32,688 nucleotides of DNA, taken from contig WJKH01000027.1 of the NCBI GenBank assembly GCA_014729235.1, positions 1-32,688 of the forward strand. Direction: 5' to 3'. Origin of the DNA: Candidatus Dojkabacteria bacterium (GTDB lineage Bacteria > Patescibacteriota > Dojkabacteria > SC72 > WJKH01). Positions 7,505-8,963 of this stretch are shown here, one piece after another (position 1 is the stretch's first letter; every line of letters begins with the position of its first letter). A program made the position numbers and the translations under genes. Below the pieces are notes generated by a model. That model had not been told where the DNA came from and made no database searches. It worked only from the letters and a program-made list of their open reading frames with translations.

Positions 7505-8083
7505 ATGCTTTTACTTAGTATGTTGTACAAAAGTCCTCCAAAAATTATCAACGCCATTTTAATAATCTTTGTGTTCTTTTGTTATAGAACGTTCATTTCT
7601 AACGTCTCAGCTAGTGAAATATGGAAACTTAAGAACGAAGCTGAAATGATCAATACTTCTAGTCGCCTTTATTTTGACAGCTACGAGAGCGAAGTTAGAA
7701 TTAATCGAGATGGAAGTCTGGAGGGCTATGCCTGGTCTGATGATCTGGGGTGGATTGATTTTGGTTGGAAAGAGGGGGTGAGGGTTAATTGGCACGAAGC
7801 TGAGCTAGAGGGGCAGGCTAAGGTTTTAAATACAAACGAGTATGTTTATTTTGATGAAAATGATGCTAAGGTGCAGGTAGACTTTGAAGATGGTGAGATG
7901 ACGGGCTATGCTTGGTCTCAGGATATAGGTTGGATTGGGTTTAACGGAGTAGAAATTGATGGAGATCTTGATAATTTAGCCAGAACTGGGAACGGGATAT
8001 CTCAGATACTTATTCTCCTAACACTTTTGGGTTTGGCGTATAAAATGTGCGCAGATAAATTATTAAAGAAAGAAGCATTATGA
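7505..8083 (+). CDS. secreted or membrane-anchored protein with two GYAWSxDxGWIxF repeats and a C-terminal TM segment
   Basis: N-terminal signal/TM. Repeats GYAWSDDLGWIDFG and GYAWSQDIGWIGFN. C-terminal ILILLTLLGLAYKMCADKLLKK. Confidence 0.8.
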   Translation: MLLLSMLYKSPPKIINAILIIFVFFCYRTFISNVSASEIWKLKNEAEMINTSSRLYFDSYESEVRINRDGSLEGYAWSDDLGWIDFGWKEGVRVNWHEAELEGQAKVLNTNEYVYFDENDAKVQVDFEDGEMTGYAWSQDIGWIGFNGVEIDGDLDNLARTGNGISQILILLTLLGLAYKMCADKLLKKEAL

Positions 8084-8963
8084 TTCCCTCAAAAATTACC
8101 CTAAAGACAAAATACGTTTTATATGCAATTTTGGGAATATTGTCACTTCTGCTGTTTAACAGGGTCTCTGCAGTTATTGCAGAGCAAGCAGGTGACTCAC
8201 CTGAAAGTGGAACAAATTCAAGACTAAATCAGTTGTATGAAAGTTTAATAAGTCTTAATTATGGTGATGAGGGTACGGGGGACTGGGGGGGAAGTGGAAT
8301 CGAATCAAAACTGCGGCAGAATGGACTCCAGACTCGGGGTTATCTGCAGAGGAGGTTTTGAGTGGAGAAAAGTTTTATAGTGGATCACGTCAAGCTCAAT
8401 ATGGAACCGCAACTCCTCAAATTGACTACGCTGAACAATCTCTGATAGCCTGGGATGATCTCTATACTGGAGATTACAGTTCTGAGGAATCTGATTGGGT
8501 GGCGACTGTATCCGATCAGGTGTACTTGGATACCAGAACTGGATTGTATTGGCATAACCCCGGGATTAGCGCGTATAACTGTTTTGACAATAGCACTTGT
8601 GATTTTTTTTCAACTGAACCCCGCGGTGATTATGATGGGAGCGATATTGGGACCTGCACTGGGGGAGGGACTGAGTGTGGTCCAGCCGGTAATGCAATTA
8701 ATTATTGTGCTACTCTTTCTTTGGATTCAGATGGTGATTCTACTCTAGAAACGGATTGGTATTTACCTTCTGTTAAAGAGCTTTTTCAAGCTCAGATTGA
8801 CGGAATAGCCAATCATTTTGCTTTAACTCCAGGTAGTTATTGGTCATCGACCGAAGCTTCTCCATCTCCCAACAGTGTATGGACTCCGTATATGCCTTAT
8901 CCAACGGGGTCAAATTCAGGTAAAGAGTTTAATAGACCGTTTTTGTGTGTCAGGAGAGATTAA
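8080..8963 (+). CDS. secreted DUF1566/Lcl_C-like surface protein, reading frame interrupted at a G7 tract (ORF track: 8080-8361 and 8358-8963)
   Basis: Signal peptide in frame 1. After G7 (8285-8291) the -1 frame reads WNRIKTAAEWTPDSGLSAEEVLSGEKFYSG and continues into TDWYLPSVKELFQAQ...YWSSTEASP...RPFLCVRRD, typical of Lcl_C/DUF1566. ATGA overlap with the upstream gene. Confidence 0.8.
8271..8291 (+). other. putative G-quadruplex / slippery G-tract
   Basis: GGGTACGGGGGACTGGGGGGG: four separable G3 tracts. Contains G_GGG_GGA heptamer 8286-8292 in the zero frame. Confidence 0.55.

Follow-up and report, generated by a model that had tools for sequence, protein, structure and literature searches.

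A frame-broken, probably orphaned target gene of a diversity-generating retroelement in a draft genome assigned to Candidatus Dojkabacteria

The window analyzed here is an entire contig of 32,688 nucleotides (32.7 kb), part of a draft genome of 1.156 Mb in 88 contigs (94.7% complete) that probably derives from Candidatus Dojkabacteria. It contains two open reading frames (ORFs), 8080–8361 and 8358–8963, that are the halves of one gene, joined by a −1 change of frame after a run of seven guanines (Table 1). In the frame opened by the ATG at 8080, the codons at the tract are TGG GGG GGA AGT; in the −1 frame, the sequence past the tract reads ...GG-KWNRIKTAAEW... and stays open until the stop codon at 8961–8963, leaving 223 open codons 3′ of the break. 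The C-terminus of the gene, in the downstream frame, matches the Lcl_C domain, PF07603 (E = 1e-8; 36.0 bits, cut-off 34.9). The product of the assembled allele would be a secreted fragment of 93 amino acids without the Lcl_C domain. The upstream neighbor, referred to as the ‘GWI’ gene, has a stop codon that overlaps the start of the split gene (ATGA). The original prediction, made from the sequence alone, had placed the G7 tract and the two ORFs at these positions, read the −1 frame into the second ORF, noted a 21-nt match to the G-quadruplex (G4) pattern, and proposed a split DUF1566-like surface gene to be searched against PF07603; all of this is borne out, with DUF1566 now named Lcl_C.

Table 1. 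Coordinates of the features of the split gene and its neighbor in the window, and of repeat tracts in related DGR loci (DGR, diversity-generating retroelement; RT, reverse transcriptase; VR, variable region).
Feature	Position	Strand
‘GWI’ gene, intact; encodes a signal peptide plus two GYAWSxDxGWIxF units; DGR-associated accessory gene	7505..8083	+
5′ half of the split gene, encoding signal peptide and AEQxGxSPxSG motif, with an out-of-frame end past the G tract	8080..8361	+
G-rich stretch encoding DWGG of the conserved DWGxxWNRI motif; matches the G4 pattern	8270..8291	+
G7 tract, site of the frame break	8285..8291	+
3′ portion of the split variable-protein gene, read in the −1 frame and containing Lcl_C (PF07603)	8292..8963	+
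Candidate RNA hairpin, 7 nt 3′ of the slippery site; unexceptional	8300..8366	+
VR equivalent (former variable region), drifted	8838..8963	+
(TC)12 in RT before DIKSFFTSID, in frame	L074:3425-3448	
(GA)10 in RT before DIKSFFTSID, in frame	L080:7380-7399	
(GA)19 in RT before DIKSFFTSID, in frame	L173:3871-3908	
(GA)13 in RT before DIKSFFTSID, out of frame	L176:5409-5434	
(TC)18 in RT before DIKSFFTSID, out of frame	L177:3932-3967	
(GA)19 in RT before DIKSFFTSID, out of frame	L170:3594-3631	
(CT)14 in RT before DIKSFFTSID, at contig end	L172	
G10 in RT, out of frame	L178:4102-4111	
Repeats around RT start	L067, L077, L087	
Repeats upstream of target genes	L060:37-46, L062:27-35, L172:3017-3046, L176:3134-3157, L087:2478-2493	

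Homologues in related genomes, which are of Patescibacteria, encode the protein in a single frame that covers the signal peptide, AEQSGxSPxSG, DWGxxWNRI and, last, the Lcl_C domain and passes straight over the junction. In the window, homology to these relatives is split between 8179–8292 in one frame and 8274–8411 in the other; since it switches frame at DWGxxWNRI, the break interrupts the motif that is best conserved in the N-terminal half. None of the homologues inspected carries the tract, and one fragmentary homologue (L063) is, like the window gene, spread over several frames. Two further readings of the junction were rejected. Independent initiation of the second ORF at TTG-8358, where the two ORFs overlap (TTG/TGA), would use the GAGGAGG at 8349–8355 as a ribosome-binding site, just 2 nt before the TTG (window 8349–8360 for site and start codon together); this spacing is too short, the bases are accounted for by Glu-Glu codons, and the product would be without a signal peptide. 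As for a functional G-quadruplex, the G richness comes from conserved Trp-Gly codons, and the same peptide is encoded in homologues with shorter G runs.

Tracts of this kind are not rare in the genome. The window contains one G7 run against 1.3 expected, and the genome holds about 22 G/C tracts of at least 7, many of them within long intact ORFs; likewise, many of the other G7–G8 tracts that fall within coding genes leave the frame intact. A coding HMM with frame changes allowed was applied to 312 kb of the genome; it recovered 114 of 120 single-base test deletions (95% sensitivity). The sole convincing frame break that it found in the 312 kb was the one in the window, with the frame switch placed at ~8304; another candidate, at L123:2891, looks like two neighboring overlapping genes. 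The coding signal truly switches frame near the tract, and the assembly is not rich in frame errors: a homopolymer-prone assembly was rejected, with no further clear break across the 312 kb.

Some other G/C runs of the same genome deserve mention in their own right. Overlapping ORFs in different frames lie by G/C runs at L025:1494–1624 (G000:C52) and L028:801–1761 (G000:C65) and may represent broken genes; the sites concerned, G000:C52:7605 and G000:C65:13068, were unflagged by the coding HMM. Two G9 tracts, at L017:1501–1509 (G000:C24) and L030:718–726 (G000:C73), share the flank ACTATAAGTTAGCG9, and both copies sit directly upstream of gene starts, as a possible promoter or leader element; the genes that follow are, by eye, enolase-like and similar to LD-carboxypeptidase.

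The identity of the gene family emerged from its 3′ end. A profile of the homologues matched again downstream of many of the homologous genes, over a short stretch corresponding to the last 40 residues alone, and these short matches are template repeats (TR). When TR and VR, the latter at the 3′ end of the gene, were compared in 13 loci, 7 to 23 adenines differed and hardly any other position did, and the RTs of 11 loci carry the DGR RT signature GLPIGNLTSQF. The family is thus one of DGR variable proteins, and the window gene belongs to it by descent, being homologous along its whole length to members whose TR/VR pairs are proven. DUF1566 is frequent among the target domains of DGRs (PMC4159848, PMC6642488), and DGRs include a Patescibacteria clade, DGR clade 2 (PMC8144416). 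Across 86 genomes of the class, a DGR RT was present in five of the six other genomes with a target homologue versus 4/79, and in the same proportions in genomes with (5/6) and without (4/79) the ‘GWI’ gene (p = 2e-5); relatives of the ‘GWI’ gene were found in about 17 DGR loci versus none of 40 control stretches. Viral contigs and a first scan of genome contigs yielded no relative. The earlier, sequence-only reading had the split surface gene right and could not have seen that it is homologous to DGR targets and stands without its DGR.

The retroelement itself is missing from the draft genome. Searches of the assembly found the 3′ end of the gene in a single copy, no match to an 18-nt template signature present in every locus where a TR was seen, and no DGR RT, and the window holds no RT remnant; this absence is judged on a 94.7%-complete draft, and a DGR could lie in the unassembled part. 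The sole RT found, on contig C60, was rejected as a DGR RT and identified as the maturase of a group II intron (TIGR04416, 395.9 bits; GIIM domain), accompanied by RF00029 and RF01999 RNA, and the locus (L095, G000:C60) is a complete group II intron with its maturase. A true DGR RT should have come up in these searches: such RTs score 57–64 bits on PF00078 and the DGR RT query matched strongly in 13 of the 14 other genomes with a target. The place that TR and RT occupy in active loci is taken in the window by pilN- and pilO-like genes, the second of which was identified by its position and its similarity to the same gene pair in another genome (G012).

The former variable region has drifted. 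In the VR equivalent, 5 of 13 otherwise fixed residues are changed, the most among 25 proteins, although a rank of 1 in 25 is modest evidence. At the 15 positions where the template of a relative (L002, used in place of the true ancestral template) has AAY codons, the window has NNY codons at 11 of 15, whereas active loci have them at 184 of 185 (P about 1e-6); NNY codons are still commoner there than at the window's other positions (Fisher p = 0.016). This is the pattern that should be expected of a frozen former variable region. Two sister Woesebacteria contigs, 88–92% identical (L067 and L068), offer what appears from their alignment to be a natural example of DGR loss parallel to the window: they align on either side of an RT-containing block, and L068 is without this block of roughly 3 kb and has kept the target gene. 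Separately, in a genome of the same order (L098, G035:C57), the DGR RT is broken by frame changes and stops, and the TR/VR differences of the target are still adenine-only.

In relatives that retain a DGR, several RTs are broken exactly at simple repeats. Counting as long frame-shifting repeats dinucleotides of at least 8 units and G/C runs of at least 9, a criterion fixed after the first repeats had been seen, we found 18 in 335 kb of DGR loci versus 2 in 1.23 Mb of controls imperfectly matched in length and lineage, an enrichment of about 33-fold in these Candidate Phyla Radiation relatives (p about 1e-10). One of the two control matches, (AT)8 in genome G001 (L141:1508–1523), itself immediately precedes the ATG of a target gene. 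When six genomes were compared with their own non-DGR sequence for all repeat types, 13 repeats stood against 6 in the non-DGR sequence, which was five times as long (p = 5e-7), a test that is biased and supportive only, the genomes having been chosen for such repeats. The RT-internal tracts directly before DIKSFFTSID occupy one shared position in about five lineages (one of these RTs, in L173, does not match the signature motif exactly and could belong to a different RT type). The RTs with an internal tract are just 62–69% identical across the next 200 residues; the tract has thus persisted in lineages that have diverged. In L176 and L177, where the RTs are out of frame, 13 of 14 and 15 of 15 TR/VR differences, respectively, fall at adenines; therefore, these elements worked recently. 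Phase-variable DGRs would be the natural reading of these repeats, and assembly error at long repeats may also contribute. On balance, it seems rather probable that Patescibacteria DGRs are phase-variable, with repeats inside the RT gene and ahead of the target gene switching hypermutation and target display. That the G7 tract of the window is a short, target-borne form of such switching is doubtful.

These observations bear on how the frame break at G7 arose. Frequent changes in tract length could switch the surface protein on and off, the assembly having captured the OFF state; phase variation of this kind is a tentative possibility, and the long repeats in the RT genes and upstream of the targets of relatives, including the (AT)8 of G001, a genome of the same family, make it likelier than expected. 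It also accords with the single lesion in the gene and with the 2.7% chance that one of the genome's roughly 22 tracts would hit the two-gene remnant. However, although a repeat tract does lie at the frame break, as in phase-variable genes, it is neither conserved in position nor unusually long for the genome: it is only 7 long, it is missing from the homologues inspected, and many of the genome's comparable tracts sit in intact genes. Moreover, the repeats seen in relatives are located within the RT or ahead of the target gene and not in the target coding sequence. The frame could alternatively be intact in the real genome, with the tract length miscalled in sequencing or assembly. Homopolymers in a draft metagenome assembly are error-prone, and the rest of the gene is open, but the many other coding G7–G8 tracts that are in frame and the 312 kb without another convincing break make such an error unlikely.

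Programmed −1 ribosomal frameshifting, which would yield a short secreted peptide as well as the full protein, is very improbable, even though the heptamer G_GGG_GGA (8286–8292) is in the zero frame and a hairpin begins 7 nt downstream of it (MFE −23.4 kcal/mol; z = −2.6, in one chosen 80-nt window). The slippery motif counts for little because heptamers of the form X_XXY_YYZ often occur in frame (453 in 60,465 codons); 3.7% of GC-matched coding windows equal or surpass the hairpin in folding, the hairpin is insignificant in other windows (z = +1.0 and −0.8), and the homologues are read in a single frame without the tract. Of the interpretations offered in the original prediction, then, the split gene stands, programmed frameshifting is unsupported, given the tract-free homologues and the unexceptional hairpin, and phase variation of the G7 tract is a less likely possibility.

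The explanation that we favor, at about even chances, is that the gene is an orphaned DGR target recently broken in frame by one-base slippage in G7. Its ancestor would have been the target, or variable protein, of a Patescibacteria-type DGR whose retroelement was then lost from the genome. The gene was probably still under selection for a time after this loss, as an ordinary secreted Lcl_C protein, because it is open over its whole length. The conserved Trp-Gly-Gly codons would have given rise to the G7 tract, and a one-base change in its length would have removed the Lcl_C domain from the product; the frame change would be recent because there is one lesion only and 223 codons are still open downstream. 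The same slippage could revert the allele. We infer a genuine and recent mutation in tract length, neither an assembly error nor regularly reversed, although the phase-variation-type repeats in the DGR loci of relatives favor switching.

The Candidate Phyla Radiation is rich in DGRs (PMC8144416). Two DGR surveys that were checked make no mention of frameshifts or phase variation, and in the titles and abstracts of the literature searched, a scope that excludes subscription papers, phase-variable DGRs are unreported. The enrichment of repeats in DGR loci probably matters more than the window gene. Repeats that toggle the RT or the target would, if real, be a direct answer to how targeted mutagenesis of surface proteins is restrained in the Candidate Phyla Radiation. 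The window, for its part, displays the leftovers of mutator loss: a drifted former VR, an accessory gene, and a target newly out of frame.

Among known systems, the window gene is a variant of the DGR variable proteins with a DUF1566/Lcl_C (C-type-lectin-like) domain, including those of Patescibacteria DGR clade 2 (PMC8144416, PMC4159848, PMC6642488). Like them, it has a signal peptide, DWGxxWNRI, a C-terminal Lcl_C domain, a 3′ end homologous to variable regions, and a DGR-associated neighbor gene; unlike them, it has a drifted VR and a broken frame, in a genome without TR or DGR RT. With the contingency genes of Neisseria and Campylobacter, it has in common that a surface-protein gene bears a poly-G tract exactly at the frame break, but its tract is short, unconserved, and known from one assembled length. 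The resemblance to dnaX-like bacterial programmed −1 frameshifting consists of an X_XXY_YYZ heptamer with a downstream stem, whereas the site in the window is unconserved, its stem is unexceptional, and the homologues do without recoding. A recent homopolymer-indel pseudogene shows the same single one-base change in an otherwise open frame, with intact homologues elsewhere; no test contradicts this likeness, with irreversibility presumed for the window gene.
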